A stretch of 64,000 nt of DNA from Owenia fusiformis. Taxonomy: Eukaryota > Annelida > Polychaeta > Sabellida > Oweniidae. How positions within the stretch are numbered: the stretch's first letter is position 1; each line of letters begins with the position of its first letter. The notes below the pieces were generated by a model. The model was not told the DNA's origin and searched no databases. It saw only the letters and a list, made by a program, of their open reading frames with translations. The stretch spans positions 35,506,528-35,570,527 of the forward strand of contig CAIIXF020000012.1 of the NCBI GenBank assembly GCA_903813345.2, read 5' to 3'. Made by a program: the position numbers and the translations under genes. Positions 14,752 to 64,000 of the stretch are shown here, in pieces.

Positions 14752-15426
14752 TTAGTTCAATTTACATAATTTCATAACAACATCTTTCAGTTCTAAAGCC
14801 CTTTCAACCTCAATTCCCTTGGCCCTTAGGCGCCCAAGTCTCTCTTCCAAGTCTGACTTCTCCATTCCCAGACTCCAGCACAATCTGATACTTATATTTA
14901 ATAAGGGCACCAATAGAGGGCTCTCATCTTTCTCACCGAGACTACGAAGGGCTAAATCAGCGTATTCCTGAGCACTTGTAAATTGTTCAGTTTTGTGGTA
15001 ACATACGACTAAGGCACATAAACTCAATGTGACGCTTGGGTTATTTAATCCTTGTAATCGTTCTTGTAACTGTTCTGCATGTATTAACCATGGTAACGCA
15101 TCACCATAGCGTTCATCACGCAGGTAGTTATACGCACTCTTAAGATCTGATTCATAGAAAAAACTGGCAAGTTGAAGCGATTCCCGAATTTCTGATATAC
15201 GATAAATGTGTCCTAGATATTGCTCGAAACCTCGACTTCTCTCAGCAATGGTTTCAGTCTTAAAATTTCCAGTAAGCATTTTCTTTGGAAATGCTACATC
15301 TTTCATAAGATGTGGAAATTGCTTGATGAGGGTCTTGTTCAGCTTCGCAAAGTCTGAATAACGACGTTCAACACTGGCTTCAACAGTGTCAATCCCTGGA
15401 GAGCGTACAACTAACACAGTATAAAG
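14752..15426 (-). CDS. Sorting nexin SNX20/SNX21-like, exon 3 (PX core and C-terminal helical domain)
   Basis: Last coding exon of a three-exon gene (exons 20995-20815, 17440-17328, 15426-14752; 322 residues when joined, close to vertebrate SNX20 at 316 and SNX21 at 373). The exon starts after a TTTATTTTCAG acceptor in phase 0 with LYTVLVVRSPG. RRYSDF is the PX-domain phosphoinositide-pocket motif; FPKKML and ETIAERSRGFEQYL complete the PX fold. The remainder (about 140 residues, from ESDLKSAYNYL) is the TPR-like PXB helical domain typical of SNX20/21. The family binds phosphoinositides on endosomal membranes; SNX20 is known to bind the adhesion protein PSGL-1 in mammals. The last 20 codons seeded the adjacent minisatellite. 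I cannot tell SNX20 from SNX21; one invertebrate co-orthologue is likely. Gene identity is strong, the exon structure is inferred from splice sites. Confidence 0.88.
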   Translation of the reverse strand, partial: LYTVLVVRSPGIDTVEASVERRYSDFAKLNKTLIKQFPHLMKDVAFPKKMLTGNFKTETIAERSRGFEQYLGHIYRISEIRESLQLASFFYESDLKSAYNYLRDERYGDALPWLIHAEQLQERLQGLNNPSVTLSLCALVVCYHKTEQFTSAQEYADLALRSLGEKDESPLLVPLLNISIRLCWSLGMEKSDLEERLGRLRAKGIEVERALELKDVVMKLCKLN

Positions 15427-15479
15427 CTGAAAATAAAAGAGAATAAGTACTGTATATGTCCCAGTATACATACAAGTTC

Positions 15480-25605: not shown

Positions 25606-26471
25606 TGAAAAGTTCATAGGCCTACTCCTTGTTACAGTGTTAAAAAGGCAAGAACTTAACTTCGACATATGTGTTACCTGATGAATCGGACCCTCACATG
25701 CCTTCCAAATGTTACTACATCAGCTCATCTTTCCGTCCGATCAACAATAAGTAGCAATAGGTCTATGGTAAATTCTTAAATGTAGTTATTGTCCTTTACA
25801 AATGATTATTGAATATGGCCTACTTTTCTATGAACGGGAGCATCGACCTTGGGGAAGATGCCTCCTAAGTGGAGAAGTGTTTCATGATTTCAGTGAACAT
25901 TTTAAAATGAGTTGTAAACCATAGATCTATTTTTTAAATGCTAAGGTTCAAATTGTATTTTATTCAAATTATATCACTGTTAAACTATATATCTGCTTTA
26001 AATAGCCTTTTGCGGATTATTGATGTAGATGTAGAAGTACAGTTATACAAGAAATGTAAACGATCTGAAAAATTCCCCAAAATTTTCCGACCGGCTTGTC
26101 ATTTCCGGAAGTTATGATATGTTATATTACCGAACATGTGTGAAAATGGAATGTTTGTTCATTCATTTCCCGAGAGCTAAATAAAATGTGAACATCTGAG
26201 GCTTTTAAGTGGGTGGAGCAATCCACCCACTAGACTTAAGTGACTAGTTGCTGAGAAATCTGAAGAATATGTAAAAAATTGATTCAATGCCAAATCTCTT
26301 TGTTTGTTTGTATCCTATTGTGCGCTATGATGCTGCTAAATGGTCTTGTGGTGCTTGAATCTCAAAACAAAATTCGACAAACGTATTACCTCTAGAGTCT
26401 ATTTCTTCCTTAGACACATCCACTGTTAAAACTTGGTATTTCACTTGTATTTCCAGGTCTAGCATTCCAGC
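25606..26471 (+). other. EED upstream region
   Basis: No ORF. Contains an ETS site at 26105-26112, a GTGGGTGGAGCAATCCACCC hairpin at about 26210-26231, and a TTGTATTTCCAG acceptor-like motif ending about 15 bp before the EED start codon. This allows a short untranslated first exon near 26.1 kb spliced to the coding exon, which is inference. Confidence 0.45.
26105..26112 (+). promoter_or_regulatory. ETS-type site upstream of EED
   Basis: CCGGAAGT about 360 bp before the EED start codon; a typical housekeeping-promoter element, role inferred from position. Confidence 0.4.
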
Positions 26472-27719
26472 ATGGAAGTAATTGACCCAGCATCTAAAGA
26501 GGATTCCTCCATCGAAGATGATGATGAAATATCCAGTTTTTGCAGCACTTTTGTTGATGACACGTCAAGAAGTGGAACACCGACTCAATATGGTCCAAGA
26601 AAAGGTCGCGGTCGAGGAAAATACAAAAACCCGAAAAAAAATTACAAGTTAAGCCAGTTTCTTAAAGAAGACCATGGACAACCAATATTCAGTGTGCAGT
26701 TCAACTGGAATATCAATAACAAAGACCGGGAGATTTTTGCGACAGTTGGCGGAAATCGGGTGACAATTTATGAATGTTCAATAGATGGCAGTGTTAAGCT
26801 CCTCCAGGCATATTGCGACGCCGATTCTGAAGAGAGTTTCTATACCTGTGCCTGGACCAGCGAGGATGTGACGGGACAGCCTTTATTAGCTGTAGCTGGT
26901 GCAAGAGGCATTATACGTCTTATAAGCCCTTCTACATCTCAGTGTATAAAAAATTTTGGTGGTCACGGAAATGCTGTAAATGAATTGAAGTTCCATCCCC
27001 GTGAACCAAACATTTTACTTTCAGTAAGTAAAGACCACGCTCTGAGGTTGTGGAACGTGAAAACAGATATCTGTATAGCTGTGTTAGGTGGAGTCGATGG
27101 GCACCGAGACGAAGTACTAAGTGCTGATTTCAACCTCGAAGGCAATAAAATTGTATCTTGCGGCATGGATCATTCACTTAAGATATGGTGCATCGATAAA
27201 GATTACATCACAGAAGTGATTAAGAAATCATATACATACAATGATGAGAAATCTGATAAGCCGTTTCCTATCGTTGCTCACCATTATCCCGATTTCTCAA
27301 CGAGGGATATTCACCGAAATTATGTCGATTGCTGTAAGTGGTACGGAGATTTCATTTTGTCAAAATCGTGCGAGAACTGCATCATATGCTGGAAACCAGG
27401 TGAACTGAATGATGATAAATTCTCTGCATCCAACTCGAAAGTAACCATCTTGCACAAATTTGACTATAAGGAGTGCGATATTTGGTACATGCGGTTCTCC
27501 ATGGACTTTTTCCAACGCTGCCTGGCCCTCGGGAACCAATATGGCAAGGTATTCGTGTGGGATTTAGACGTCGATGATCCCTCGCTGGTGAGATGCACAT
27601 CACTCACTCACGGAAAATGTACAATGCCTGTTCGCCAGACACATTTTAATAAAGATGGGAGCACTCTGTTGTGTGTTTGTGACGATGCAACAATATGGAA
27701 GTGGGACAGGATTCGATAG
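26472..27719 (+). CDS. EED: Polycomb protein EED, single-exon coding sequence
   Basis: A 415-residue WD40 protein matching the whole of EED (human isoform 441): acidic N-terminus, basic [13 protein letters not shown] stretch, then the seven-bladed propeller. EED is the PRC2 subunit that binds trimethylated H3K27 and stimulates EZH2. The aromatic cage is intact: F73 (PIFSVQF), Y124 (FYTCAW), W338 and Y339 (CDIWYMRF). Other family signatures: [73 protein letters not shown], and the C-terminal WKWDRIR. There is no frameshift or stop, so the copy looks functional. Unusually it has no intron, whereas vertebrate EED has about a dozen coding exons. No poly(A) remnant or target duplication was evident at its ends, so retrocopy origin is possible but not shown. 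Confidence 0.95.
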
Positions 27720-36330: not shown

Positions 36331-37345
36331 TGCTCCTTCACATGGAACAATATTACAATTTTGAAGGCTAAGACATAACTTCAAATAGCTTTTTAATGTT
36401 TGAGTAATAACAAATAAGGTCAAAATGTATTCTAGTTGTGCTATACTATTACTCATGTGTGGTGTTATATGTACAGTATATGATGCCACAGTTAAGTTTC
36501 CATATAATTGTCAACTGAGGGTGAAGCCTTTCAACTTGATGCCAGTACCCTCTTGCCATTGTCCCCCTCCCAATCAACTCATTTGTTTGCAATGTATACT
36601 TTATATCTACTGTACTGATGTCAGTGTGCGTGTTTTGTAAGTTGATACTTTTGATTGCCAATTGTCAAAATACTTGTTATGTGTAATACTGAGAGTTCAT
36701 AATGTCATATATGAATTTCCAGAAAATGCAGTATGCCTAATCTGTGAAGAAAACTGAGTCCAGCAGAAGATTTAACAACTCTTTCAAGATGGTTGCCAAG
36801 ATTCTTTCGTCTTCAATAAACCTTCGATTTCAGCTAAGCTAAGCTGAATCTTGATTCCAAAAGTTTCGCCATGTGATTTTAATAAAACTACGATTATATT
36901 CAGCCACAAATGAATGCCCAAACACCTGTGATATAAAGAGTATTTTAAAGAAAACAGCATCACTTAGAATTACTCTAACTGCAGTTGATAATCTTTGTCA
37001 TCATAATGTCATCATCAACTTCAGTTGAAGTCATTCTAGGTGAAGCCATTTTCTTAAAAATTCTCCAATATCGCGGTTGTTTCAGCATTTATTTGTGGTT
37101 ATTACCATCGTAGCTTTATTTATTTGCATGGCGAAACATTTGGAATCCAGATTCAACTTAGTTTAGCTGAAATCGGAGGTTAATCGAAAACGAAGGAATT
37201 TGGGCAACCATCTTGAATGAAGCTAACTGCAGTTAGGGTCATCCAGCTGTGGAACAGTGAACACAAAGTTCATTTACAGGTCCATTCCATGAAGATCAGT
37301 CCAGGTAAGATATTTACTGAATATGATTAAGTTGATTTAAATAAT
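36331..37345. other. No gene recognised (copy A)
   Basis: AT-rich; the open frame at 36425-36640 has no known domain and its copy B equivalent is broken by an insertion at 55690, which argues against coding. AACTTCAGTTGAAGT-type and GCTAAGCTAAGC-type small palindromes occur between 36800 and 37200. Confidence 0.5.
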
Positions 37346-37350
37346 CACTA

Positions 37351-37882
37351 GGGCAGATCATTTGTACTGAAAGGAGTGTTTTCAGTACAAATATGTACTG
37401 AAAAATGTACTAGTTTTGTTTCAGTACAAATTTAAGTATATTTTTGTACTGAAAAATGCACTGAATTTTTTTCAGTATATTTTTCAGTACAAATTCATGT
37501 ACTGAAAAATAAACTGAATTTTAAGTACAAATTTAAGTATAAATATGTACTGAAAAATGTACTGAATTTTAAGGACAAATTTAAGTGCAAAAATATACTG
37601 AAAAATGCACTGAAAATTTAAGGATAAATTTAAGTACAAATATATACTGAAAAATGTACTGAAATGCAAATACTTAAGTGCAAAAGTCAGTATAAAAATG
37701 TACTGAAAAATATACTGAAATTTAAGGATAATTTTAAGTATAGATATATGCAATGAGAAATATTTGTGCCCAATAATGGAAATAAGAGAAAACGTAAATG
37801 TAAGGCATACTTTATGAACTCTAAATCACTCAAAAAGTTCTTAGAATGGTGAAAAAGTGCATGATTTTAAAAGAATTTTTGG

Positions 37883-37937
<55 letters not shown>

Positions 37938-39339
37938 CGCTTGGACCCCTGAACCCCCCCCCCCCCCCCTATTACATTATGAAATTATTTTGGATGCTTC
38001 CTTTACAGCAGCCTTTAACCAAACTTAAAAGAGTCTCTCTGTAATCAGGTTTGTTTTGCCTTGTCAAAACATTTTGTTTTGTTAGTGGATTAATAAAGTT
38101 TCTTTAGACATATCCTTTAAAGCAGACTCTAATCAAACTGGAGAGGCTAGGTTTACTGTAATCAAGTGATTTCCTTTTTAGAAGTTATGTTTATGGATTT
38201 ATTAAAAACGGCCTAAATCACTCAAAAAGTTCTTAGAATGGTGAAAAAGTGCATGATTTTAAAAGAATTTTTGGCAGCAGGGGGGATCGCTTGGACCCCT
38301 GAACCCCCCCCCCCCCCAGGAATGCTATTACATTATGAAATTATTTTGGATGCTTCCTTTACAGCAGACTTAAACCAAACTTAAAAGAGTCTCTCTGTAA
38401 TCAGGTTTGTTTTGCCTTGTCAAAATATTTTGTTTTGTTAATGGATTAATAAAGTTTCTTTAGACACATCCTTTAAAGCAGACTCTAATCAAACTGGAGA
38501 GGCTAGGTTTACTGTAATCAAGTGTTTTCCTTTTAATAAGTTATGTTTTTGGATTTAATTATTTAAGACGCATCCTGTAATAATATCTGATTGCATTTTC
38601 TCCATCAATAAATTTCTTTTTAGCCCGATCAAACCTATCAAATATAATGCATATATAAGGGTTATGTACTGGGAGGTTTTGGATACCCATATTTCCTGAG
38701 GGATAAACCCTTTATTTAAAACTGATCGTACATAACATGTGTATTCCATACCTTTTGAGGTTTCTAGATACATTCTACCTTATTAAGTTCTAAAATTCAA
38801 GGTACACATTTTCTCAGTCTTAAAAATAAGTTTTTCATGAGATTTTCACTCATATTGCTTGAGCAAATTAATTAATTGATATCAAAATTAAAATATATAA
38901 CATGAACATAGAACCTCATTTGTTCGAGTATAGCAAAATCCATGGTATAGATGTCAAAGTCAAGAAGATGTCATAATTCAAAATCTAAGTATATTTTTCA
39001 GTATAAATTTACACTTAGATATGCCCTTAAATTTCAGTATATTTTTCAGTACATATTTGCACTTAAAATCACACTTAAATTTCAGTATATTTTTTAGTAC
39101 ATATTTGCACTTAAAATCACACTTAAAATTCAGTATATTTTTCAGTATAAATATATACTGAAAAATGTACTTAAAATTTCAGTACATTTTTCAGTACATA
39201 TTTGTACTGAAATTTGCACTGAAATTTTAAGTATATTTTTCAGTACATATTTATACTGAAAAATATACTTAAAAATTTAGTACATTTTTCAGTACATATT
39301 TGTACTGAAAACGCTCCTTTCAGTACAAATACTCTGCCC
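37351..39339. mobile_element. 2 kb AGTACA-rich fold-back element (copy A)
   Basis: Ends GGGCAGA and TCTGCCC flanked by TA on both sides; the subterminal regions (37370-37740 and 39000-39330) are inverted arrays of AGTACAAATATGTACTGAAA-type units. The interior has a 375-bp tandem duplication (37835 and 38215) with long G and C homopolymers, and no transposase. Also present in copy B at 56581-58526. Confidence 0.7.
37885..37935 (+). repeat. 51-nt G homopolymer
   Basis: An uninterrupted run of 51 G followed 20 bases later by a C run. The matching place in copy B has 14 G. Likely to form G-quadruplex or hairpin structures and prone to slippage or sequencing error; the frame 37846-38028 spanning it is an artefact. 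Confidence 0.9.
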
Positions 39340-39698
39340 TAGTGAACACTTGTAGTTTTATAAGGAATAGAATGACAAGTTGTATTGATCCATTCAGTCA
39401 ATGGTTAAGTTCACATAAAGAAGAGAGGTCAAATAAAAAGATGAAGGACTTGCTAAGTATCTGCCTAGACAAGTTTTTGACAAAATAAAGGATAAATATC
39501 ACAAGATGTCATTGAAAAGGATTGGCAGTCAAGTAGCTAACTTGTAGAAAATACCTTTTTTCATGCTCCAAATCACTGCAACACTATCAGAGTAGGTCCA
39601 GTTAAAGTTCCTAGTGAGCGAGGTAAAAATATATGAAGCTAACAAAGTAAGTATACATTAATGAAATGATGCATTTTCAGGCATGTAGTAAGGCTTTA

Positions 39699-39936
39699 TT
39701 AACTCATTGCTGGCCAAAGCTATTTTTGAGGTTTTATGCCATTGTGAAGTCAATGACAATATATCTCAATTGCACCAACCATGGTCCCCTAGTGACACTT
39801 ACAATATTTTGTAAGATTATTGGTATAGATGGTGTGCCATACATGATTGAACAGCACCCTGAGATATCTACGGTTGGTTAGATGCAATTATGACGTCATA
39901 GATGAAATATTTCGAGGTTTGTCAGCAATGAGTTAA
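39699..39936. mobile_element. MITE with TTAA target duplication (copy A)
   Basis: TTAA then CTCATTGCTGGC at the left; GTCAGCAATGAG then TTAA at the right. The TTAA duplication fits piggyBac or Kolobok-type elements. The 71-codon frame across it, the same in both copies, lies inside the MITE. Confidence 0.75.
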
Positions 39937-40350
39937 CCAAATGATTTCTTGTTTAATTGACAAGTGACACCATGCAGTATGTTAGCATTGACGATATCCA
40001 ATAATGCTCACCTTTTTTACATTAATGTTTAAGGGAATATACTGTGAAAAATGTACATCGGTATACTGTGACAGTGAAGTACTTTAAATACATAGAAATG
40101 AAGGAATATAATTATATGATGTATAAACCACTGTCGAAGCTAATATACAGTTGCCAGGTTGCGTGATTTACAGAGTATGTCCAAAATTTAGAAAGGGGGT
40201 CTGAGTTTGGGTGGATATGGGGGAAAATAGGACAAAGAGACAATAAAATATCCTTATGCCAAACTAGGCAGACTGCAAGAGAATTCATACATGTGTGTTA
40301 TAAATTGTTTAAGGTAGATTCTTTCTATGTCACTTTTTTCTTTTAGTTCC

Positions 40351-43300
40351 TCATATATTTCTCTTCTCCTCTGTCAGTCTGATCCAATGGTCTAAATTCT
40401 GAATATCAGGATGATCATTATTTGAATGTACCTGCTTGAATATGACAAGGCTCTTATTGTAGTAGTTCATTGCTACTTTATATTCCCCCATAGCATAATA
40501 TACAATACCAATATTGGCCAATGAGTTAGCAGTGCTAGTGTGAGGATGATCACCATGAATCAGTTTCTTCATGGTCAGACTCTCTTCATGGTATTTTATA
40601 GACTTGTTATAGTCTCCTTTAGATTGATATGCAGTACCAATATTATTTAATGAATTTGCTATATCAGTGTGAGGGTGATCACCATGAATCAGCTTCCTCA
40701 TGTTCAGACTCTCTTCATGGTATTTTATAGACTTGTTATAGTCTCCCTTAAATTGATATGCAGTACCAATATTATTTAATGACTTTGCTATATCAGTGTG
40801 AGGATGATCACCATGAATCAGCTTCCTCATGGTCAGACTCTCTTCATGGTATTTTATAGACTTGTTATAGTCTCCCTTAAATTGATATGCAGTACCAATA
40901 TTATTTAATGAGTCTGCTATGTCAGTGTGAGGGTGATCACCATGAATCAGCTTCTTCATGCTCAGACTCTCTTCATGGTATTTTATAGACTTGTTATAGT
41001 CTCCTTTATCTTGATATGCATTACCAATATTATTTAATGAGGCTGTTATGTCAGTGTGAGGATGATCACCATGAATTAGCTTCATCATGGTCAGACTCTC
41101 TTCATGGTATTTTATAGACTTGTTATAGTCTCCTTTAGATTGATATGCATTACCAATATTATTTAATGAATTTGCTATATCAGTGTGAGGATGATCACAA
41201 TGAATCAGCTTCTTCATGGTCAGACTCTCTTTATGGTATTTTATAGACTTGTTATAGTCTCCTTTAGATTGATATGCATTACCAATATTATTTAATGAAT
41301 TCGCTATATCAGTGTGAGGATGATCACCATGAATTAGCTTCTTCATGGTCAGACTCTCTTCATGGTATTTTATAGACTTGTTATGGTCTCCTTTAGATTG
41401 ATATGCAGAGCCAATATTATTTAATGATTTTGCTATATCAGTGTGAGGATGATCACCATGAATTAGCTTCTTCATGGTCAGACTCTCCTCATGGTATTTT
41501 ATAGACTTGTTAGTGTCTCCTTTAGATTGATATGCATTACCAATATTATTTAATGACTTTGCTATATCAGTGTGAGGATGGTCACCATAAATCAGCTTCA
41601 TCATGGTCAGACTCTCTTTATGGTTTTGTATAGATCTGTTGTAGTCACCTTTAGAGTCATATGCAGTGCCGTTGAGGGATAATGAGTTTGCTAACCTTAT
41701 GTTGTGATGGTCCCCATACAATTGCTTCAACAGTATCATACTTTCATTGATGTATTTTATTGCTATATTATACTTTCCTTGTGATAGATACACACTGGCT
41801 ATGTTGTATTTCACATCACTTAGCTCGATTTCATGACCTTTTGTTGTGAGTGATAAGATTCTTCCCTCTTCTTGTTTAAATATTTCAATTGCACTGTTAC
41901 AGAAATTCATGTTTTCATACAGCTCAGCTTTTGTTCTGTAACTTGTATCTATACCTTTGTTTATATTCAAGAGTTCTATCTATTTTTAGATGTTGCAGAA
42001 ATTCTGACCAAGGTATAAATGTAGTGAAGAATCTGAATATTGCTGTGTAATCCCGAACAGAAATCATGTTTGAATAATCAACTACGTTCCCTTTTGTTTC
42101 AATGTTTGATCTTATAATGAATGATATGAGATCCTGTTGTTCATCATACCTGCCATAGACAAGATGGCGCATGTTAGTAACTATACAAGTCATTACTTGT
42201 AAATCTTTCATTGCTCGCTCAGTGAGGATTTTCCTTTGATGTAATTCCTCAAGTATATCAAGTGGGGAAAATGACTGACAGTTATGCAAAAGCTTTAATA
42301 TGTTAATTGAGATTGTTGCAAATCTGTATATAGTGTGTTTTGTGTGTATTTGTTTACTAAGTGACTCTGGCGCAAGAGGATTTTTAATGTAGTTCTCTAA
42401 ATCCTCTGCTAGTGTTTCCAGCCCACGTTCCCTGCCTATTGATATATTTGGGTTATTGGCAGAAGGTGATGCTAGTATTGTGTGAACCTTGTTATTGTAT
42501 TGTTCCCAGAGAGCGTGGTCTCCTTTTATAAGGGTGGATGTGAGAAGGACATCACTGAGATGGTACCCTTCCTTGATGGACACATCTTCTTGCTGACACT
42601 GAGCCATCTCTTCAACAGTCATTATCAGTTCTAGACCTGTACATTTGTTAGGATTTTGTGTTGATTGCCTACCAAATGGTGTCTTGCTTGCTTTTGGTTG
42701 GGTACCATCAAAGCTCAGACCTCTCTTTGTGATTGTGTCATAAAAGTCATTGTTTTTCAAATGTTTAGGGAGTTTGTCATTAAAATCATTAAGAACTGGG
42801 ATGTCAAGATTGTTTATCAATGTCTCCCCAAGATTTATTATCTTCATGTGGAAATAATGCACAAGAGTTCTGAATTCTTGCTTTATTTCTTTGATTTCAT
42901 TCTCTGTTTTGTCACCTGGGTCATACAGAATGGCTGACTCAAGATCTGACCAGGCCGTTGCCTCTTTTCGAGCCAGCGATCCTAGACCCAAAATCGCATA
43001 CTTGCACTTTGGTGCCCCAAGGACTGATATGCAATCATCAAGCATTGTGTTATAAAGAGATATAATGAACTCTACCAGTTTATCATGATAAGCTTTGCTA
43101 TGAGCAATTGTTTCATCTTCATTTTCATTAGTCATTTCAGATGTGACACTATCAATTTTCATATCATTAATATGAATAGCATTAACAGTCTCATTGGAAT
43201 ATTTCCTTAATTTCTCAATTTCATCTTTGTATTTCTTTGTACAGCTCAACACAGATTCAGTGTTTTCTTTACATACAGTTTTCAGAAAGTCGGTCTCTAT

Positions 43301-43557
43301 TTGTTGCAGTTGTTGGTTTATATAGTCAACATTACAATGACTATCTGAGTTTGTTATCTGATCCTTTGCAATCCGTTGTTTCGCAGAATTAAAGAGTGCT
43401 GCAGCCCAATTAAAGTGCCAACCATCTGATGTTTCTTTCCCTAGTTCTGCATATTCATTTCCAAGCTTACACATCAGTTCAGCTTGCTTAGTCAGCTCTC
43501 CATCCTTATTGCATGCTACAATCTGATGGCCCAACTCATGCATGGCATCTGTAGCCT
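40351..43557 (-). CDS. NTase-TPR protein, copy A, exon 2 (frameshifted)
   Basis: Long exon starting at an acceptor (CATTTTAG|AGGCTAC) in phase 1/2. Domains in order: helical region with LGHQIVACNKDGEL; a nucleotidyltransferase fold with GLGSLARKEATAWSDLES, where GS and D-x-E are the expected NTase positions; a helical domain with LTSTLIKGD resembling the DUF294/GlnD-type accessory region; then 11 TPRs of 42 residues of the kinesin-light-chain/nephrocystin type (SLNNIGNAYQSKGDYNKSIK). Relative to copy B two bases are missing near 41951-41954 (CTATACC against CTATATACC), which shifts frame exactly between the NTase part and the TPRs. The frames 43576-41924 and 41970-40351 are the two pieces. 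Either a recent pseudogene, two separate products, or a sequencing error. Ligand and substrate unknown; the family's role is inferred. Confidence 0.85.
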
Positions 43558-43577
43558 CTAAAATGAACAGATACAAG

Positions 43578-44400
43578 TTTATAATTTGTTTCTGTTACCT
43601 CTAAAATAACAAATACAAGTACTTCAATGGCATCTGTGACCTCTAAAATAACCAAATACAAGTACTTCAATGGCATCTATAACCTCCAAAATAACGAAAT
43701 AGAAGTACTTCAATGGCATCTATAACCTCTAAAATAACGAAATACAAGTACTTCAATGGCATCTGTAACCTCTAAAATAACCAAATACAAGTATACTTAT
43801 GGCATCTTTGACCTCTGAAAGAACCAAATACAAGTATACTTATGGCATCTGTGACCTCTGAAATAACCAAATACAAGTACACTTATTGCATCTGTAACCT
43901 CTAAAATAACCAAATACAAGTATACTTATGGCATCTTTGACCTCTGAAAGAACCAAATACAAGTATACTTATGGCATCTGTGACCTCTGAAATAACCAAA
44001 TACAAGTACACTTATTGCATCTGTAACCTCTAAAATAACCAAATACAAGTATACTTATGGCATCTATAACCTCTAAAATAACCAAATACAAGTATACTTA
44101 TGGCATCTGTGACCTCTAAAATAACCAAATACAAGTATACTTATATCATCTGTTACCTCTAAAATAACCAAATACAAGTATACTTATGGCATCTTTGACC
44201 TCTAAAATAACCAAATACAAGTATACTTATGGCATTTGTGATACAAGTATACTTATGGCATCTTTGACCTCCAAAATAACCAAATACAAGTATACTTATG
44301 GCATTTGTGATACAAATATACTTATGGCATCTATGACCTCTAAAATAACCAAATACAAGTATACTTATGGCATCTGTGACCTCTAAAATAATTCAATTCA
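43578..44400 (-). repeat. 43-bp minisatellite built from the NTase-TPR splice acceptor (copy A)
   Basis: About 19 units in the intron between exons 1 and 2. On the minus strand each reads GGTTATTTTAG then AGGTCACAGATGCCATAAG; the true junction reads TTCATTTTAG then AGGCTACAGATGCCATG. The unit therefore contains the end of the intron and the first 15 or so bases of exon 2. Frames such as 44186-44386 are artefacts. Confidence 0.9.
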
Positions 44401-44455
44401 AGTATGTCACTTCATATGTGGACTCAACACTGTAATAAATCAATTGTATCTAGAG

Positions 44456-44650
44456 GCTCTCTAAAACAGTAAAGTTCAAACAAATCAATCATATATGTGT
44501 TTTCTTGAACAATCAAATTCAAACAAATCAATGGTATATGTGTCTTCTTGAACAATCAAATTCAAACAAATCAATCGTATATGTGTCTTCTTGAACAATC
44601 AAATTCAAACAAATCAATGGTTTATGTGTCTTCTTGAAAAATCAAATACA
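44456..44650. repeat. 43-bp minisatellite next to exon 1
   Basis: About four units of CTTGAACAATCAAATTCAAA plus CAAATCAATGGTATATGTGTCTT, unrelated in sequence to the neighbouring array but of the same length. It lies in the same intron, directly downstream of the exon 1 donor. Confidence 0.8.
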
Positions 44651-44673
44651 AGTTTATCAGTAAATCTCTTTAC

Positions 44674-44845
44674 CTAGTGGGTTTGGCCCTGGGTTGGTTT
44701 CAATCCCAGCTCTCATCAAAAGTTGTTGTATCAATCGTAAGGAGACAGGGCTGTTTCTGTATGCTGAGGGGTCTCTGTTTTCCGAGTGTCCTCGATGGAT
44801 AAACATCCCTATGGCTCCGCGCCACTGTTGTGTCGAAATACCCAT
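44674..44845 (-). CDS. NTase-TPR gene copy A, exon 1 with 2A-like motif
   Basis: Fifty-seven codons plus one base, from an ATG that follows an in-frame TGA by one codon. It encodes QWRGAIGMFIHRG, then SLRLIQQLLMRAGIETNPGP and NPL, ending at a CTAG|GTAAAG donor in phase 1. Exon 2 begins AG|GCT, so the join gives an intact Glu codon and reads NPL-EATDAM. The IETNPGP end matches the 2A consensus D(V/I)ExNPGP except that D is replaced by G. 2A sequences make ribosomes skip the Gly-Pro bond; related motifs are known from CR1-type retrotransposons and from NLR genes of sea urchin. Here it would release a leader of about 53 residues or, if not used, leave a fused N-terminus. The splice join is inferred, not observed. 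Confidence 0.7.
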
Positions 44846-45295
44846 GATTCAGAGTCTCCTCTCCAAATAGAATATGTCAGCTTGGCATTATAATCATATG
44901 GTTGAAAGTCCCTTTATGGTTCTGGGCTGAGTCACTGTTTTGACAATTGTTGTGATGTATTACCCATGCTTCAGTTGAATTGCCTCAACTACAAGTAGAA
45001 TGTGTTAATATGAGAATTATTTTAGTTTTGTAGTCAAATCATGCCCTCATAGCAATTCAGATAATAAAGTTACATTTTGACTTGATATTCAATCGAGTTT
45101 ACTTTTAAAGTTTCGTTTTGCCTTGTCACTCCGGATACCATACAAAATACTAATCTAAGTAGTCTCAAACCCTGGGCAAACTAGTCTTATAGTACACTAG
45201 TGTTATTCAATTTCATACTGCTATATAGCTGAATAAATGGTGCCATATATCCTGACAATAAATGAAAGTCTATAGGCCTAGAATAGTCTACACTG
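44846..45295. other. Upstream region of NTase-TPR copy A
   Basis: No ORF. 5' flank of the minus-strand gene; no TATA box convincing enough to call. Confidence 0.4.
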
Positions 45296-47639: not shown

Positions 47640-47689
47640 CACGTTGTGGATAATAATTTAAATAAAATTCAATTTTAAGCGAAAAGTTA

Positions 47690-48751
47690 ATGGATGAGTT
47701 GATCTCTAATGTTGCAGAGGTTGAATCAGATGACACATATACTTTATTGATGGGTGATTTTAATGGGAAGGCAACCAAATTTTGTAAAGGGCAAAGCAGC
47801 CAAAATGGTAAACTTATCGATCTTTTCAGTGATGTCACAGGCATGCACATGTGAAACACTATTAACTGTCAGGGTGAGATAACATGGTCAAGGGGAACTC
47901 AACATTCATCCATTGACTATTGCTTCGGTAACCATAATTTTATGAAGGTGTACCAAAATATGATTATTGATGAAACCCACGAAGAGGCAAGTTTAGGTAG
48001 TGACCACTCTTTTATGATTATAAATGCTATACTGCCCTCTCAGTCAGGTAACCTTAAGACCAATGTTCCTCCTGATAATAAAGATAATGATACTGTAATT
48101 TGGAACATCAATGATAACACAGATTGGGATTGCTTCAGAAACGCCATTAATACTGAATTTAGTTCCTGGGACATTTCCAAGTGCAGTAACATTGAAGATG
48201 CATGGTCCTCATTCAAAGAGAATATAATGAAGGATGCTCATATAGGGGTTGGGATTAAGAGGGTACCAACGAACCATCGTTCATTTTGGGATAAATAAAT
48301 TAAATTATTGATAAATAATCGTAAAGAAGCATCACGCTTCTACCGATATTGGAGTCGTTCAAAGTCAGCTGACCCTGACATACTTCGAGAAATTTGGAAC
48401 TTATACCTCGAACGTAAAAAACAAGTTCAGTTGAAAATAGTTGAATCACATGTAAAGAATCACATCAAAGTTTTAACTAGTAATGCTAGGTCACTTTCTA
48501 AATGTTCAAGATCCTACTGGAAAAAATTGAAAATGTTCAATGTAAATAATGGATATCCCATTCATTTAGGTATTGGAACTGACCTCAAAAGAAGAAAGTG
48601 TGATGATGGTTTTTGCAAACTTTGTTCCCTTCATCCAATTGATGATTTAACACACAGATTTTTACATGTAGTCACAACCAACGTGAAAGAATTGATTTTT
48701 ACAACAGAATTAAAACCTCATGCTCTCCTGATGTATTTAATATGTTCTTAA
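47690..48751 (+). pseudogene. LINE ORF2 remnant: endonuclease end, linker and C-terminal Cys motif
   Basis: Conceptual reading is broken by a TGA after TGMHM (about 47850), a TAA at 48296 and a stop at 48749. MGDFNG and SDH are APE-type endonuclease motifs. No YxDD reverse transcriptase motif is present. The late CxLC...H segment is the usual C-terminus of such ORFs. Confidence 0.75.
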
Positions 48752-48917
48752 CGCTTCCTTTAAATGAAAAATTAAAGTGGTGCCTAGGAGATGTTGTTTT
48801 TAGTATTTGGGGCAAAGACCAAGGATTCTTGTTTGACAAGTTTGTCAAACAATTTTTAGTGACTATTAATAACGATATTTTAAACTCATAACATATGTAC
48901 AATTTAACATATTTATT

Positions 48918-49210
<293 letters not shown>

Positions 49211-49654
49211 ATCTGTATTGTATTGTATTTTATGAATATGTATTTGTTTTATGTACTGCCGCACTGGAATTTTCCATTGTGCCACTGATTAAAAAGTGTT
49301 TGGCAAATAAATAAATAAATAAATAAAATATTTTGTTAAATGTTAAAATAATGCGTGTGAACAGGATAGATTCAGTGCACAATTTACACTCTTACCTTAA
49401 TATTTTCAGGGTATGGAATGAATGAACAAGATAACAATAGTCTTCTATAGCATGCATGCTGTTGGGGTTATTTAGCAAACCAAGGTAATATATGCTTGAG
49501 ACCAGTTTTTTAATTGCTTTATCATATATCTATCAGACTGAAAATTCAATTAGATCTGAAGAATAAGATCATTTTGTCTTATTCTAAGTACAATGTTTTC
49601 CCCCTTTCTGACTTAATTGAACATTTTCTTACAGATTTGGTAGTCCCAGTTTGG

Positions 49655-55440: not shown

Positions 55441-56580
55441 AATTCAGAATGCTCCTTCACATGGAACAATATTACAATTTTGAAGGCTAAGACATAACTT
55501 CAAATAGCTTTTTAATGTTTGAGTAATAACAAATAAGGTCAAAATGTATTCTAGTTGTGCTATACTAATACTCATGTGTGGTGTTATATGTACAGTATAT
55601 GATGCCACAGTTAAGTTTCCATATAATTGTCAACTGAGGGTGAAGCCTTTCAACTTGATGCCAGTACCCTCTTGCCATTGTCCCCCCCCCTCTTCCTGAC
55701 TTTTCTCATTTGTAGGTTTTGTATGTTCATGATGAACCCAAACCAATGAACTTTGTTCAAATAAACCGGTTGGTCATCCACTTTATCTCCCAATCAACTC
55801 ATTTGTTTGCAATGTATACTTTATATCTACTGTACTGATGTCAGTGTGCGTGTTTTATAAGTTGATATTTTTGATTGCCAATTGTCAATATACTTGTTAT
55901 GTGTTATACTGAGTGTTCATAATGTCATATATGAATTTCCAGAAAATGCAGTATGCCTAATCTGGGAAGAAAACTGAGTCCAGCAGAAGATTTAACAACT
56001 CTTTCAAGATGGTTGCCAAGATTCTTTCGTCTTCAATAAACCTTCGATTTCAGCTAAGCTAAGCCGAATCTTGATTCCAAAAGTTTCGCCATGTGATTTT
56101 AATAAAACTACGATTATATTCAGCCACAAATGAATGCCCAAACACCTGTGATATAAAGAGTATTTTAAAGAAAACAGCATCACTTAGAATTACTCTAACT
56201 GCAGTTGATAATCTTTGTCATCATAATGTCATCATCAACTTCAGTTGAAGTCATTCTAGGTGAAGCCATTTTCTTAAAAATTCTCCAATATCGCGGTTGT
56301 TTCAGCATTTATTTGTGGTTATTACCATCGTAGCTTTATTTATTTGCATGGCGAAACATTTGGAATCCAGATTCAACTTAGTTTAGCTGAAATCGGAGGT
56401 TAATCGAAAACGAAGGAATTTGGGCAACCATCTTGAATGAAGCTAACTGCAGTTAGGGTCATCCAGCTGTGGAACAGTGAACACAAAGTTCATTAAGAGG
56501 TCCATTCCATGAAGATCAGTCCAGGTAAGATATTTACTGAATATGATTAAGTTGATTTAAATAATCACTAGGGCAGATCA
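55441..56580. other. No gene recognised (copy B)
   Basis: Counterpart of 36331-37345, with a C run and about 100 extra bp at 55690-55795 relative to copy A. Confidence 0.5.
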
Positions 56581-58526
56581 TTTGTACTGAAAGGAGTGTT
56601 TTCAGTACAAATATGTACTGAAAAATGTACTAGTTTTGTTTCAGTACAAATTTAAGTATATTTTTGTACTGAAAAATGCACTGAATTTTTTTCAGTATAT
56701 TTTTCAGTACAAATTCATGTACTGAAAAATAAACTGAATTTTAAGTACAAATTTAAGTATAAATATGTACTGAAAAATGTACTGAATTTTAAGGACAAAT
56801 TTAAGTGCAAGAATATACTGAAAAATGCACTGAAAATTTAAGGATAAATTTAAGTACAAATATATACTGAAAAATGTACTGAAATGCAAATACTTAAGTG
56901 CAAAAGTCAGTATAAAAATGTACTGAAAAATATACTGAAATTTAAGGATAATTTTAAGTATAAATATATGCAATGAGAAATATTTGTGCCCAATAATGGA
57001 AATAAGAGAAAACGTAAATGTAAGGCATACTTTATGAACTCTAAATCACTCAAAAAGTTCTTAGAATGGTGAAAAAGTGCATGATTTTAAAAGAATTTTT
57101 GGCCGGGGGGGGGGGGGGTTCGCTTGGACCCCTGAAACCCCCCCCCCCCCCCAACAGGAATGCTATTACATTATGAAATTATTTTGGATGCTTCCTTTAC
57201 AGCAGCCTTTAACCAAACTTAAAAGAGTCTCTCTGTAATCAGGTTTGTTTTGCCTTGTCAAAACATTTTGTTTTGTTAGTGGATTAATAAAGTTTCTTTA
57301 GACATATCCTTTAAAGCAGACTCTAATCAAACTGGAGAGGCTAGGTTTACTGTAATCAAGTGATTTCCTTTTTAGAAGTTATGTTTATGGATTTATTAAA
57401 AACGGCCTAAATCACTCAAAAAGTTCTTAGAATGGTGAAAAAGTGCATGATTTTAAAAGAATTTTTGGCAGCAGGGGGGATCGCTTGGACCCCTGAACCC
57501 CCCCCCCCCCAGGAATGCTATTACATTATGAAATTATTTTGGATGCTTCCTTTACAGCAGACTTTAACCAAACTTAAAAGAGTCTCTCTGTAATCAGGTT
57601 TGTTTTGCCTTGTCAAAATATTTTGTTTTGTTAATGGATTAATAAAGTTTCTTTAGACACATCCTTTAAAGCAGACTCTAATCAAACTGGAGAGGCTAGG
57701 TTTACTGTAATCAAGTGTTTTCCTTTTAATAAGTTATGTTTTTGGATTTAATTATTTAAGACGCATCCTGTAATAATATCTGATTGCATTTTCTCCATCA
57801 ATAAATTTCTTTTTAGCCCGATCAAACCTATCAAATATAATGCATATATAAGGGTTATGTTCTGGGAGGTTTTGGATACCCATATTTCCTGAGGGATAAA
57901 CCCTTTATTTAAAACTGATCGTACATAACATGTGTATTCCATACCTTTTGAGGTTTCTGGATACATTCTACCTTATTAAGTTCTAAAATTCAAGGTACAC
58001 ATTTTCTCAGTCTTAAAAATAAGTTTTTCATGAGATTTTCACTCATATTGCTTGAGCAAATTAATTAATTGATATCAAAATTAAAATATATAACATGAAC
58101 ATAGAACCTCATTTGTTCGAGTATAGCAAAATCCATGGTATAGATGTCAAAGTCAGGAAGATGTCATAATTCAAAATCTAAGTATATTTTTCAGTATAAA
58201 TTTACACTTAGATATGCCCTTAAATTTCAGTATATTTTTCAGTACATATTTGCACTTAAAATCACACTTAAATTTCAGTATACTTTTAAGTACATATTTG
58301 CACTTAAAATCACACTTCAGTATATTTTTCAGTATAAATATATACTAAAAAATGTACTTAAAATTTCAGTACATTTTTCAGTACATATTTGTACTGAAAT
58401 TTGCACTGAAATTTTAAGTATATTTTTCAGTACATATTTATACTGAAAAATATACTTAAAAATTTAGTACATTTTTCAGTACATATTTGTACTGAAAACG
58501 CTCCTTTCAGTACAAATGCTCTGCCC
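56581..58526. mobile_element. 2 kb AGTACA-rich fold-back element (copy B)
   Basis: Counterpart of 37351-39339 with the same GGGCAGA/TCTGCCC ends and flanking TA. The internal G run is only 14 long and the C runs differ in length. Confidence 0.7.
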
Positions 58527-58885
58527 TAGTGAACACTTGTAGTTTTATAAGGAATAGAATGACAAGTTGTATTGATCCATTCAGTCAATGGTTAAGTTCA
58601 CATAAAGAAGAGAGGTCAAATAAAAAGATGAAGGACTTGCTAAGTATCTGCCTAGACAAGTTTTTGACAAAATAAAGGATAAATATCACAAGATGTCATT
58701 GAAAAGGATTGGCAGTCAAGTAGCTAACTTGTAGAAAATACCTTTTTTCATGCTCCAAAGCACTGCAACACTATCAGAGTAGGTCCAGTTAAAGTTCCTA
58801 GTGAGCGAGGTTAAAATATATGAAGCTAACAAAGTAAGTATACATTAATGAAATGATGCATTTTCAGGCATGTAGTAAGGCTTTA

Positions 58886-59123
58886 TTAACTCATTGCTGG
58901 CCAAAGCTATTTTTGAGGTTTTATGCCATTGTGAAGTCAATGACAATATATCTCAATTGCACCAACCATGGTCCCCTAGTGACACTTACAATATTTTGTA
59001 AGATTATTGGTATAGATGGTGTGCCATACATGATTGAACAGCACCCTGAGATATCTACGGTTGGTTAGATGCAATTATGACGTCATAGATGAAATATTTC
59101 CAGGTTTGTCAGCAATGAGTTAA
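58886..59123. mobile_element. MITE with TTAA target duplication (copy B)
   Basis: Counterpart of 39699-39936 with the same ends and TTAA on both sides; present in both copies, so it predates the duplication. Confidence 0.75.
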
Positions 59124-59537
59124 CCAAATGATTTCTTGTTTAATTGACAAGTGACACCATGTAGTATGTTAGCATTGACGATATCCAATAATGCTCACCT
59201 TTTTTACATTAATGTTTAAGGGAATATACTGTGAAAAATGTACATCGGTATACTGTGACAGTGAAGTACTTTAAATCCATAGAAATGAAGGAATATAATT
59301 ATATGATGTATAAACCACTGTCGAAGCTAATATACAGTTGGCAGGTTGCGTGATTTACAGAGTATGTCCAAAATTTAGAAAGGGGGTCTGAGTTTGGGTG
59401 GATATGGGGGAAAATAGGACAAAGAGACAATAAAATATCCTTATGCCAAACTAGGCAGACTGCAAGAGAATTCATACATGTGTGTTATAAATTGTTTAAG
59501 GTAGATTCTTTCTATGTCACTTTTTTCTTTTGGTTCC

Positions 59538-62500
59538 TCATATATTTCTCTTCTCCTCTGTCAGTCTGATCAAATGGTCTAATTTCTGAATATCAGGATG
59601 ATCTTTATTGGAATGTGCCTGCTTGAATATGACAAGGCTCTTATTGTAGTAGTCCATTGCTACTTTATATTCCCCCTTAGCGTAATTTGTAATACCAATA
59701 TTGGCCAATGAGTTAGCAGTGCTAGTGTGAGGATGATCACCATGAATCAGTTTCTTCATGGTCAGACTCTCTTCATGGTATTTTATAGACTTGTTATAGT
59801 CGCCTTTAGATCGATAAGCAATACCAATATTATTTAATGAGGCTGCTATATAAGTGTGAGGATGATCACCATGAATCAGCTTCGTCATGGTCAGACTCTC
59901 CCCATGGTATTTTATAGACTTGTTATAGTTTCCTTTAGATTGATATGCAGTACCAATATTATTCAATGAATTTGCTATATCAGTGTGAGGATGATCACCA
60001 TGAATCAGCTTCCTCATGTTCAGACTCTCTTCATGGTATTTTATAGACTTGTTATATTCTCCTTTAGATTGATATGCAATACCAATATTATTTAATGAGT
60101 CTGCTATGTCAGTGTGAGGGTGATCACCATGAATCAGCTTCTTCATGCTCAGACTCTCTTCATGGTATTTTATAGACTTGTTATAGTCTCCTTTATCTTC
60201 ATATGCATTACCAATATTATTTAATGAGGCTGCTTTGTCAGTGTGAGGATGATCACCATGAATCAGCCTCCTCATGGTCAGACTCTCCTCATGGTATTTT
60301 ATAGACTTGTTATAGTCTCCTTTAGATTGATAAGCAATACCAATGTTATTTAATGAGTCTGCTATGTCAGTGTGAGGATGATCACTATGAATCAGCTTCC
60401 TCATGGTCAGACTCTCCTCACGGTATTTTATAGACTTGTAATAGTGTCCTTTAGATTGATATGCAATACCAATATTATTTAATGAGTCTGCTATATCAGT
60501 GTGAGGATGATCACCATGAATCAGCTTCTTCATGGTCAGACTTTCCTCATGGTATTTTATAGACTTGTTGTAGTCTCCTTTAGATTGATATGCAGAACCA
60601 ATATTATTTAATGAATATGCTATATCACTGTGAGGATGATCACCATGAATCAGCTTGCTCATGTTCAGACTCTCCTCATGGTATTTTATAGACTTGTTAT
60701 AGTCTCCTTTAGATTGATATGCAGTACCAATATTATTTAATGAGTCTGCTATATCAGTGTGAGGATGGTCATCATGAATCAGCTTCATCATGGTCAGACT
60801 CTCCTCATGGTATTTTATAGACTTGATATAGTCTCCTTTAGATTGATATGCAATGCCGATGAGGGGTAATGAGATTGCTAATCTTATGTAATGATGGTCC
60901 CCGTGCAATTGTTTCAACAATATTATGCTCTCGATGATGTATTTCATTGCTATATTATACTCTCCTTGTGATAGATGCACTCTGGCTATGTTGTGTTTCA
61001 CCTCACTTAGCTCAATTTCATGACCTTTTGTTGTGAGTGATAAGATTCTTCCCTCTTCTTGTTTAAATGTTTCAATTGCATTGTTACAGAAATTCATGTT
61101 TTCATACAGCTCGGCTTTTATTCTGTAACTTGTATCTATATACCTTTGTTTATATTCAAGAGTTCTATCTATTTTTAAATGTTGCAGAAATTCTGACCAA
61201 GGTATAAATGTCATGAAGAATCTGAATATTGCTGTGTAATCCCGAACAGAAATCATGTTTGAATAATCAACTACGTTCCCTTTTGTTTCAACGTTTGATC
61301 TTATTATGAATGATATAGGATCCTGTTGTTCATCATATCTGCCATAGACAAGATGACGCATATTAGTTACTATACAGGTCATTATTTGTAAATCTTTCAT
61401 TGCTCTCTCACTGAGGATTTTCCTTTGATGTAATTCCTCAAGTATATCAAGTGGGGAAAATGAATGACAGTTATGTAAAAGCTTCAATATGTTAATTGAG
61501 ATTGTGGCAAATCTATATATAGTGTGTTTTGTGTGTATTTTTTTACTAAATGACTCTGGCGCAAGAGGATTTTTAATGTAGTTCTCTAAATCCTCTGCCA
61601 GTGTTTCCAGCCCACGTTCCCTGCCCAGTGATATATTTGGGTTATTGGCGGAAGGTGATGCTAGTATTATGTGAACCTTGTTATTATATTTTTCCCAAAG
61701 TGCAAGGTCTCCTTTTATAAGGGTGGATGTGAGAAGAACATCACTGAGATGATACCCTTCCTTAATGGACACATCTTCTTGCTGACACTGAGCCATCTCT
61801 TCAACAGTCATTATCAGTTCTAGACCTGTACATTTGTTAGGATTTCTTGTTGATTGCCTACCAAATGGTGTCTTGCTTGCTTTTGGCTGGGTACCATCAA
61901 AGCTCAGACCTCTCTTTGTGATTATGTCATAAAAGTCATTGTTTTTCAAATGATCTGGGAGCTTATCATTGAAGTCATTAAGAACTGGAATGTCAAGATT
62001 GTTAATCAATGTCTCCCCAAGATTTATTATCTTCATATGAAAATAATGCACAAGAGTTCTGAATTCTTGCTTTATTTCTTTGATTTCATTCTCTGTTTTG
62101 TCACCTGGGTCATACAGAATGGCTGACTCAAGATCTGACCAGGCTGTCGCCTCTTTTTGAGCCAGCGATCCTAGACCCAAAATCGCATACTTGCACTTCG
62201 GTGCTCCAAGGACTGATATGCAATCATCAAGCATTGAGTTATATAGTGATATGATGAACTCTATCAGTTTATCATAATAAGCTTTGCTATGAACAATTGT
62301 TTTATCTTCATTTTCATTAGTCATTTCAGATGTGACACTGTCAGTTTTCATATCATTAATATGAATAGCATTAACAGTCTCATTGGAATATTCCCTTAAT
62401 TTCTCAATTTCATCTTTGTATTTCTTTGTACAACTCAATGTTGGTTCAGTGTTTTCTTTACATACAGTTTTCAGAAAGTCGGTCTCTATTTGTTGCAGTT

Positions 62501-62746
62501 GTTGGTTTATATAGTCAACATTACAATGACTATCTGAGTTTGTTACCTGATCCTTTTCAATCCGTTGTTTCGCAGAATTAAAGAGTGCTGCAGCCCAATT
62601 AAAGTGCCAACCATCTGATGTTTCCTTCCCTAGTTCTGCATATTCATTTCCAAGCTTACACATCAGTTCAGCTTGCTTGGTCAGCTCTCCATCCTTATTG
62701 CATGCTACAATCTGATGGCCCAACTCATACATGGCATCTGTAGCCT
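59538..62746 (-). CDS. NTase-TPR protein, copy B, exon 2 (intact)
   Basis: Open for 1068 residues from the acceptor CATTTTAG|AGGCTAC; with a copy-A-like exon 1 (outside the window) the protein would be about 1126 residues. Domains: N-terminal helical part (YELGHQIVACNKDGEL, GNEYAELGKE); nucleotidyltransferase fold at about residues 240-270 with GLGSLAQKEATAWSDLES, keeping GS and both acidic positions (D-x-E near 62135-62127); a helical accessory region (LNDFNDKLP, LTSTLIKGDLALWEKY) as in DUF294/GlnD-type enzymes; a linker ending EYKQRY; then 11 TPRs of 42 residues and a tail ending LTEEKRNI. Metal-dependent nucleotidyl transfer is possible because the acidic residues remain, but substrate is unknown. 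TPRs suggest a protein-binding platform. NTase-like plus repeat architecture with family expansion recalls innate immune receptors; that is inference. About 95% identical to copy A in the NTase part. Confidence 0.88.
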
Positions 62747-62769
62747 CTAAAATGAACAGAGACAAGTTT

Positions 62770-64000
62770 ATACATTTTTTCTGTTCCCCAACGAAATACA
62801 AGTACACCAATGGCATCTATAACTTCTGAAATAACCAAATACAAGTATACTTATGGCATATGTGACCTCTAAAATAACCAAATACAGGTATACTTATGGC
62901 ATATGCGACCTCTAAAATAATCAAATACAAGTATACTTATGGCATCTGTGACCTCTCAAATAACCAAATACAAGTATACTTATGACATCTGTGACCTCTA
63001 AAATAACCGAATACAAGTATACTTATGGCATATGTGACCTCTAAAATAACCAAATACAAGTATATTTATGGCATCTATGACCTCTAAAATAACCAAATAC
63101 AAGTATACTTATGGCATATGTGACCTCTCAAATAACCAAATACAAGTATACTTATGGCATATGTGACCTCTAAAATAACCAAATACAAGTATACTTATGA
63201 CATCTGTGACCTCTAAAATAACCGAATACAAGTATACTTATGGCATATGTGACCTCTAAAATAACCAAATACAAGTATATTTATGGCATCTATGACCTCT
63301 AAAATAACCAAATACAAGTATACTTATGGCATATGTGACCTCTAAAATAACCAAATACAAGTATACTTATGGCATATGTGACCTCTAAAATAACCAAATA
63401 CAAGTATATTTATGGCATATGTGACCTCTAAAATAACCAAATACAAGTATACTTATGGCATATGTGACCTCTAAACTCTAAAATAACCAAATACAAGTAT
63501 ACTTATGGCATATGTGACCTCTAAAATAATCAAATACAAGTATACTTATGGATCTATAACCTCTAAAATAACCAAATATAAGTATACTTATGGCATCTGT
63601 GACCTCTAAAATAACCAAATACAAGTATACTTATGGCATATGTGACCTCTAAAATAACCAAATACAAGTATATTTATGGCATATGTGACCTCTAAAATAA
63701 CCAAATACAAGTATACTTATGGCATATGTGACCTCTAAACTCTAAAATAACCAAATACAAGTATATTTATGGCATATGTGACCTCTAAAATAACCAAATA
63801 CAAGTATACTTATGGCATATGTGACCTCTAAAATAACCAAATATAAGTATACTTATGGCATATGTGACCTCTAAAATAACCAAATACAAGTATACTTATG
63901 GCATATGTGACCTCTAAAATAACCAAATACAAGTATACTTATGGCATATGTGACCTCTAAAATAACCAAATACAAGTATACCTATGGCATCTATGACCTC
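62770..64000 (-). repeat. 43-bp splice-acceptor minisatellite (copy B, continues past the window)
   Basis: About 28 units or more of the same unit as 43578-44400, each with TTATTTTAG|AGGTCACAGATGCC on the minus strand. Several longer units carry an extra AAACTCT duplication (63476, 63735). Exon 1 of copy B must lie beyond 64000. Confidence 0.92.

Follow-up and report, generated by a model that had tools for sequence, protein, structure and literature searches.

The 64,000-nucleotide stretch of Owenia fusiformis DNA analysed here (contig CAIIXF020000012.1, positions 35,506,528 to 35,570,527; hereafter the window) carries two copies of a gene for a large protein composed of an NTase domain followed by TPR repeats, and a short exon lying upstream of the first copy ends in a 2A (StopGo) motif, the signature of co-translational ribosome skipping. 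The explanation that we consider probable is that the first coding exon of the Owenia (OTU-)NTase-TPR multigene family is a removable 2A leader of retroelement descent, gained once and kept by selection. The parts of the first copy are as follows.

44674..44845, minus strand: leader exon of NTase-TPR copy 1, 57 codons plus one base, phase 1, recognized by family alignment and genome matches
44801..44845, minus strand: N-terminal block MGISTQQWRGAIGMF (the QWR block), which resembles the start of retroelement open reading frames (ORFs); evidence from alignment, selection and profile matches
44684..44707, minus strand: 2A/StopGo core octapeptide GIETNPGP, with the predicted skip site between the final G and P
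43558..44673, minus strand: intron 1 of copy 1 (GT...AG), largely 43-bp repeats
40351..43557, minus strand: second exon of copy 1, NTase followed by TPR, with the frame broken near 41954, so that the joined protein ends after 601 aa

Read on the minus strand, window positions 44845-44674 give MGISTQQWRGAIGMFIHRGHSENRDPSAYRNSPVSLRLIQQLLMRAGIETNPGPNPL. The donor reads CCACTAG up to the exon boundary and GTAAAG beyond it, in phase 1, and the acceptor at window position 43557, where TTCATTTTAG is followed across the boundary by AGGCTACAG, lies in the complementary phase, the split codon becoming GAG (E). The original prediction, namely an exon ending in a 2A-like motif with a phase-1 GT donor and an acceptor of complementary phase, is therefore borne out by the sequence reading. 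The octapeptide conforms to the core definition (D/G/C/N)(V/I)ExNPGP (PMC12846837, available text), and it is the sole match to [DG][VI]ExNPG in the six frames of the window, in which one bare NPGP occurs elsewhere. Just upstream, at 44898..44974 on the minus strand, a putative decayed leader copy (MGNTSQQ... followed by a stop) is a weak candidate, its local alignment score of 41 being a marginal excess over the maximum of 39 in 300 shuffles.

An alignment of 30 leaders, 28 of them unique, is conserved at both ends, the N-terminal one being MGxSxxQWRxAIGxF and the C-terminal one an L-rich run that closes with (A/G)G(V/I)ExNPGP; the linker between them is free in sequence and length. The short form of the leader has 54-63 residues and the full range is 54-211 aa. 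The ratio of nonsynonymous to synonymous substitution rates (dN/dS), calculated over 89 leader pairs of 60-98.5% identity that share ancestry and are not independent counts, is 0.09 in the N-terminal block, 0.58 in the linker, 0.15 in the C-terminal block and 0.08 in the octapeptide. Furthermore, NPGP is spelt by 15 different codon combinations in the 28 unique leaders with its amino acids unchanged. As for the splice signals, in all 30 leaders the GTA or GTG nearest downstream of NPGP falls in phase 1 (that of L021 is late and weak), and a phase-compatible AG, which alone is weak evidence, is found no more than 30 bases ahead of the exon-2 match at 27/27 loci examined, L055, L062 and L068 (of 30 NTase loci) having been left out because their match does not start near the exon start. 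By eye, 25 of these 27 acceptors are preceded by a pyrimidine tract at the homologous place. At three loci on C8 (L047, 108-1069; L049, 4850-5307; L061, 273-1202) tandem 163-bp arrays repeat the front half of the leader, with an acceptor-like TTTTAG ahead of MG and the 2A motif only in the last unit. N-myristoylation of the leader was considered and rejected: G2 is invariant, but residue 6 is mostly Q or E, contrary to what we take to be the consensus of N-myristoyltransferase.

The Owenia fusiformis assembly was searched with two leader queries, with loose G-type and D-type 2A patterns and with an NTase-TPR query (43 of 214 candidates scored, 82 matches, grouped by us into 43 genes). The look-out for the same exon in other family members that the original prediction had suggested was fruitful, since 34 of the 43 genes have, at most 25 kb upstream and on their own strand, a leader match or a G-type 2A site; the first leader query and the G-type sites account for 32, and the second query adds C10:36079350 (at 280 bp, the leader having DPGP) and C3:29718572 (at 12.4 kb). 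The query with the window leader gave 35 genome matches (E up to 10) and the second 49, two of which are a mobile coiled-coil ORF. The G-type pattern, approximately G(V/I/M)(E/D)xNPGP, occurs at 53 sites and the D-type pattern at 99, each against a single site for the reversed pattern; the genome-wide count of the motif far exceeds chance. An NTase-TPR exon on the same strand follows within 5 kb for 23/35 leader matches and 25/53 G-type sites, as opposed to 0/35 and 0/53 in the other-orientation control. Among 16 further G-type sites (L069-L084), 13 have a leader-like, L-rich 2A end, L081 and L083 are retroelement-like and L080 is neither; the last (C11:27982660-27982930) has a pair of NPGP motifs (SGIEKNPGPRVIETDGIEKNPGP) at a spacing of 14 residues, and its surroundings resemble neither leader nor retroelement. 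The leader alone found no homologue in a short-word protein-database search or in a phage collection, and residues 1-70 of the deposited protein P0010 retrieved only P0010, a search that is insensitive, since other leader-bearing Owenia proteins exist.

Such proteins came from a protein search with 26 matches, 23 of them from Owenia fusiformis, whose annotation drew together assembled RNA-seq, splice junctions and ab initio prediction (PMC9977687, available text). The leader is present in 13 of the 23: ten have a canonical core (P0003, P0005, P0010, P0011, P0013, P0016, P0018, P0019, P0020 and P0023), P0011 beginning at an internal Met and thus without the QWR block, and three have the variant cores GVHLNPGP (P0006), GVQLNPGP (P0007) and GIEMDPGP (P0012). 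Five of the deposited models (P0010, P0011, P0012, P0013 and P0016) pass from leader to NTase at a junction that corresponds to that of the window and has the same E. The arrangement proposed, a 2A leader exon spliced to an NTase-TPR exon, is supported by these fusions and by its recurrence across the family. An OTU domain is found in P0003, P0005, P0006, P0007 and P0023, in P0005 barely above the cut-off. The first 75 residues of the Branchiostoma protein P0025 (74% of the query, 32% identity) contain neither NPGP nor a leader.

As for the cargo, Pfam assigns a DUF294 NTase and TPR repeats to copy 2; over copy 2 and six deposited proteins DUF294 is found in all but P0013, along with TPR and, in some, OTU, and the lists contain neither NACHT nor LRR. 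The structure predicted for residues 1-560 of P0002, the copy-2 protein, with 23 sequences (mean pLDDT 81.7) matches DrrA (6yx5) and Escherichia coli GlnE (3k7d, 1v4a), the E-values being 3e-7 to 6e-6, the TM-scores on the query only 0.35-0.39 and the identity 11-14%; S192, S202, D203 and E205 are invariant in 23 sequences. The best guess is a putative AMPylating enzyme on a TPR scaffold.

It is the second copy, not the first, that is intact. Exon 2 of copy 1 had been described as an open exon of 1000 residues, which does not hold: owing to a two-base length difference from copy 2 near 41954, it is frameshifted and stops after 544 exon-2 codons (601 aa including the leader), the TPR half lying in another frame, so that the named copy yields no complete NTase-TPR product. 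The parts of copy 2 within the window are the following.

59538..62746, minus strand: exon 2 of copy 2, intact NTase-TPR, 1,068 full codons open
62747..64000, minus strand: part of copy-2 intron 1, filled by like 43-bp repeats

The copy-2 leader (C12:35571243-35571413) lies just past the window end and is 98% identical to that of copy 1; the second exons are 94% identical, and both copies are held in what appears as a tandem segmental duplication (36567-44656 versus 55787-63894, 93.7% identical), which may instead represent uncollapsed haplotypes. In intron 1 of copy 1 the 43-bp array at 43542-44405 reproduces the acceptor together with the beginning of exon 2 and thus holds that splice site many times over; a further 43-bp array spans 44475-44651. 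Tandem repeats also encode the TPR array, with a period of 129 bp (window 40537-41667, 8.8 copies, 93%); L047, L049 and L061 have repeats of that period in their TPR part as well.

In the same genome, a similar block followed by 2A stands at the start of a mobile coiled-coil ORF and of ORFs in non-long-terminal-repeat (non-LTR) retroelements. The D-type loci L001-L008 are 8/8 retroelement-like by eye, L004 by likeness to L001 alone; an endonuclease was found in both retroelement loci scanned, and one retroelement N-terminal query accounts for 25 of the 99 D-type sites. A hidden Markov model of the QWR block matches three of the eight retroelement loci and the coiled-coil ORF, which we take to be a LINE ORF1 and for which the best 25 of 53 Pfam rows all fall below curated cut-offs. 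In copy 2 and the six deposited proteins scanned, the 2A motif is not followed by an endonuclease-reverse transcriptase domain. The suspected link with retrotransposons is therefore strengthened by a second shared block besides 2A, and a retroelement origin of the leader is likely, with transfer from element to gene as the presumed direction.

The history of the leader within the gene family can be approached from its divergence. The distances between leaders rise with those between their NTase regions (Mantel r 0.88 over 29 entries, made up of 17 loci and 12 deposited proteins, in which some genes may be counted twice, as locus and as protein; r 0.64 for 15 dereplicated entries; 0/2000 permutations in both cases), and for this reason the leader was probably gained once, early, and then inherited vertically. 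As to the suggestion that the leader of copy 1 is an exonized 5′ end of a retrotransposon, the shared module speaks for the retroelement part of it; a recent exonization in this very gene is improbable, because leader divergence follows that of the family, and probably did not occur.

The opposite course, in which mobile elements acquired the leader from a host gene where it was ancestral, is unlikely. The present data give no direction of transfer, and the full-length match to the leader module is the coiled-coil ORF, of which there are no more than three near-identical copies plus one fragment; however, the module opens ORFs of several distinct retroelement families, a single 169-aa retroelement query has 99 genome matches (41 at E 0.001 or better) as against one family only among genes, and 2A has been reported in non-LTR elements (PMC11512398, available text).

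The mechanism that we propose starts from the observed sequence, splice phases, conservation, co-inheritance and likeness to mobile-element ORFs; skipping, product ratio, direction of transfer and targeting are its predictions. The leader, which runs from the MGxSxxQWRxAIGxF block through a variable linker to an L-rich 2A/StopGo end, would be released at NPG by most ribosomes; these would then continue with P, so that the leader peptide would be set free and the NTase-TPR protein would start with proline, while the remaining ribosomes would produce the leader-NTase-TPR fusion. Core variants (DPGP, or H or Q for E) would shift the ratio of free to fused forms. The module would have been taken once from a non-LTR retroelement ORF before the family expanded, and then inherited under selection. 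In members with a strongly hydrophobic, L-rich leader the fused form may be directed to membranes, as in the sea-urchin NOD-like receptors (NLR); the window copies would probably not be so directed. A bolder version, to which we give rather less than an even chance, is that both halves of the captured and spliced module are selected, the 2A setting the ratio of free to fused forms and the released QWR leader acting as a functional microprotein, and that the pair was carried through the radiation of several dozen putative AMPylating NTase-TPR(/OTU) genes.

Among StopGo sequences with the above core, the L-rich motif 5 has (A/G/S)G at p12, and a natural H variant at p14 is more than 95% active in vitro, with 26-56% activity quoted from earlier work for a Q variant (PMC12846837). 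By eye, QLLMRAGIETNPGP resembles motif 5 and QLLMRAG likewise matches its description. Given the activities of the H and Q variants, P0006 (H) and P0007 (Q) may still skip, and free and fused forms are expected to occur in differing ratios among members. The hydropathy of the leaders (best 15-residue mean; 30 leader loci and 13 deposited leaders) peaks at 2.28-3.27 in 12 of the 30 loci and 11 of the 13 deposited leaders, and at 0.78-1.89 in the rest (L026 being lowest, at 0.78). By analogy with the sea-urchin NLR (PMC4981915), dual targeting is plausible for hydrophobic leaders. It is unlikely for those of the window, because they are weakly hydrophobic (0.99 in copy 1, 0.93-0.99 in the four C12 leaders), which speaks against the different locations foreseen for the skipped and fused forms of this copy.

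Several observations weigh against the proposed leader and its history. Skipping is a prediction from sequence, and the window copies were read as genomic DNA; exon-2 stops occur in two of the four copies at the C12 locus, and no protein of these four was recognized among the 26 database matches. The leaders were found by mutual similarity and the dN/dS pairs share ancestry, as stated. At 25 kb, 31/53 G-type sites lie upstream of NTase-TPR genes on the same strand, and the other-orientation control also gives 8/53, owing to the clustering of the genes. On the side of the elements, L007 and L008 have no QWR block, and no gene leader is among the 99 matches of the 169-aa query. On the side of the genes, the DPGP of P0012 indicates that 2A is not retained in every member, 10 of the 23 deposited Owenia proteins (2 of them partial records) have no NPGP and no leader in the first 75 residues, and some deposited models (P0004, P0015, P0017) begin with a conserved Met that exon 2 encodes within its first few codons. 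In the light of these ten proteins and of the models starting at the exon-2 Met, leaderless products are possible.

The leader might thus be one of several alternative first exons and its form a minor one, the main protein starting from the exon-2 Met through another promoter. The Met of MYELG/MYDLG is indeed invariant in a 12-protein alignment (A2), the three models just named start there, and the partial leader exons in tandem on C8 are of a kind with such an arrangement; strong selection on both leader ends and the deposited models with a full leader make it an improbable one. Somewhat less probable still is that the leader is an N-terminal tag or membrane signal, consisting of the QWR block and a hydrophobic stretch, with an inactive or incidental 2A-like end. 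The QWR block is as conserved as the 2A core (dN/dS 0.09 versus 0.08), many leaders have the hydrophobic stretches described and one member has DPGP, but the constancy of NPGP through its many codon spellings, the agreement of the core with the definition of active StopGo and the activity of the natural H-for-E variant in vitro (PMC12846837) argue against this reading. That the leaders are retroelement debris, upstream of the genes by chance or repeated insertion without being parts of them, can practically be set aside: elements with a similar module are common in the genome, but 0/99 D-type sites lie within 25 kb upstream of NTase-TPR genes, chance adjacency and repeated insertion are rejected on the basis of the orientation and distance controls and of leader-NTase co-inheritance, and splice phases, deposited fusions and selection likewise largely contradict it.

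Other features of the window are an ORF at 26463-27716 (plus strand), presumably related to the Polycomb protein EED; an ORF at 14755-15477 (minus strand), presumably similar to a PX-domain sorting nexin; an endonuclease-like fragment, by eye, of a non-LTR element at 47666-48295 (plus strand), about 3 kb upstream of the leader and on the opposite strand; and a long tetranucleotide microsatellite at 48873-49311 with several open frames (LSIY repeats).

The use of 2A by cellular genes is reported to be very rare, NOD-like receptors of the sea urchin being the only case named in the available text of PMC12846837 and PMC11512398; Owenia would add, in another phylum, cellular 2A as a conserved feature of a gene family. 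In 2016 speculation on the relation between cellular and retrotransposon 2A was judged fruitless in the sea-urchin study, the sequences being too short (PMC4981915, available text); the extra QWR block makes this relation testable. The natural core variants of one family (DPGP, H, Q) also provide a ready series on which to ask whether the efficiency of skipping is tuned. In the literature covered, no paper was found on Owenia 2A leaders or NTase-TPR genes; the eukaryotic 2A survey of Rao (2025, Cell Rep), outside this coverage, may list Owenia.

In the Owenia leader as in SpNLR2A (PMC4981915), the closest known system, an L-rich sequence of 2A type stands at the N-terminus of the products of a large multigene family of the cell. 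Two products from one mRNA were shown for SpNLR2A and are predicted in Owenia. The SpNLR2A leader has 26 aa, with 12 of 14 predicted to be signal sequences, whereas that of Owenia has 54-211 aa, mostly G at p12, the extra QWR block and a junction made by splicing; its cargo is OTU/NTase/TPR instead of NACHT-LRR, and the window's own leader is weakly hydrophobic, unlike the signal-type leaders of SpNLR2A. StopGo motif class 5 (PMC12846837) appears by eye to have in common with Owenia the L-rich upstream stretch ending (A/G/S)G, with G at p12; it was defined on viruses, however, and prefers P at p15, where Owenia has T, Q, S, M and others (by eye). With the adenylyltransferases GlnE and DrrA the likeness lies in the predicted NTase fold, which in Owenia is joined to long TPR arrays and sometimes to OTU. 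Finally, 2A sequences were reportedly described in APE-type non-LTR retrotransposons by Odon in 2013. Such elements and the Owenia genes both have an N-terminal module ending in 2A, and several Owenia elements share the QWR block as well; what differs is the sequence placed after the module, endonuclease-type or coiled coil in the elements and OTU/NTase/TPR in the genes.
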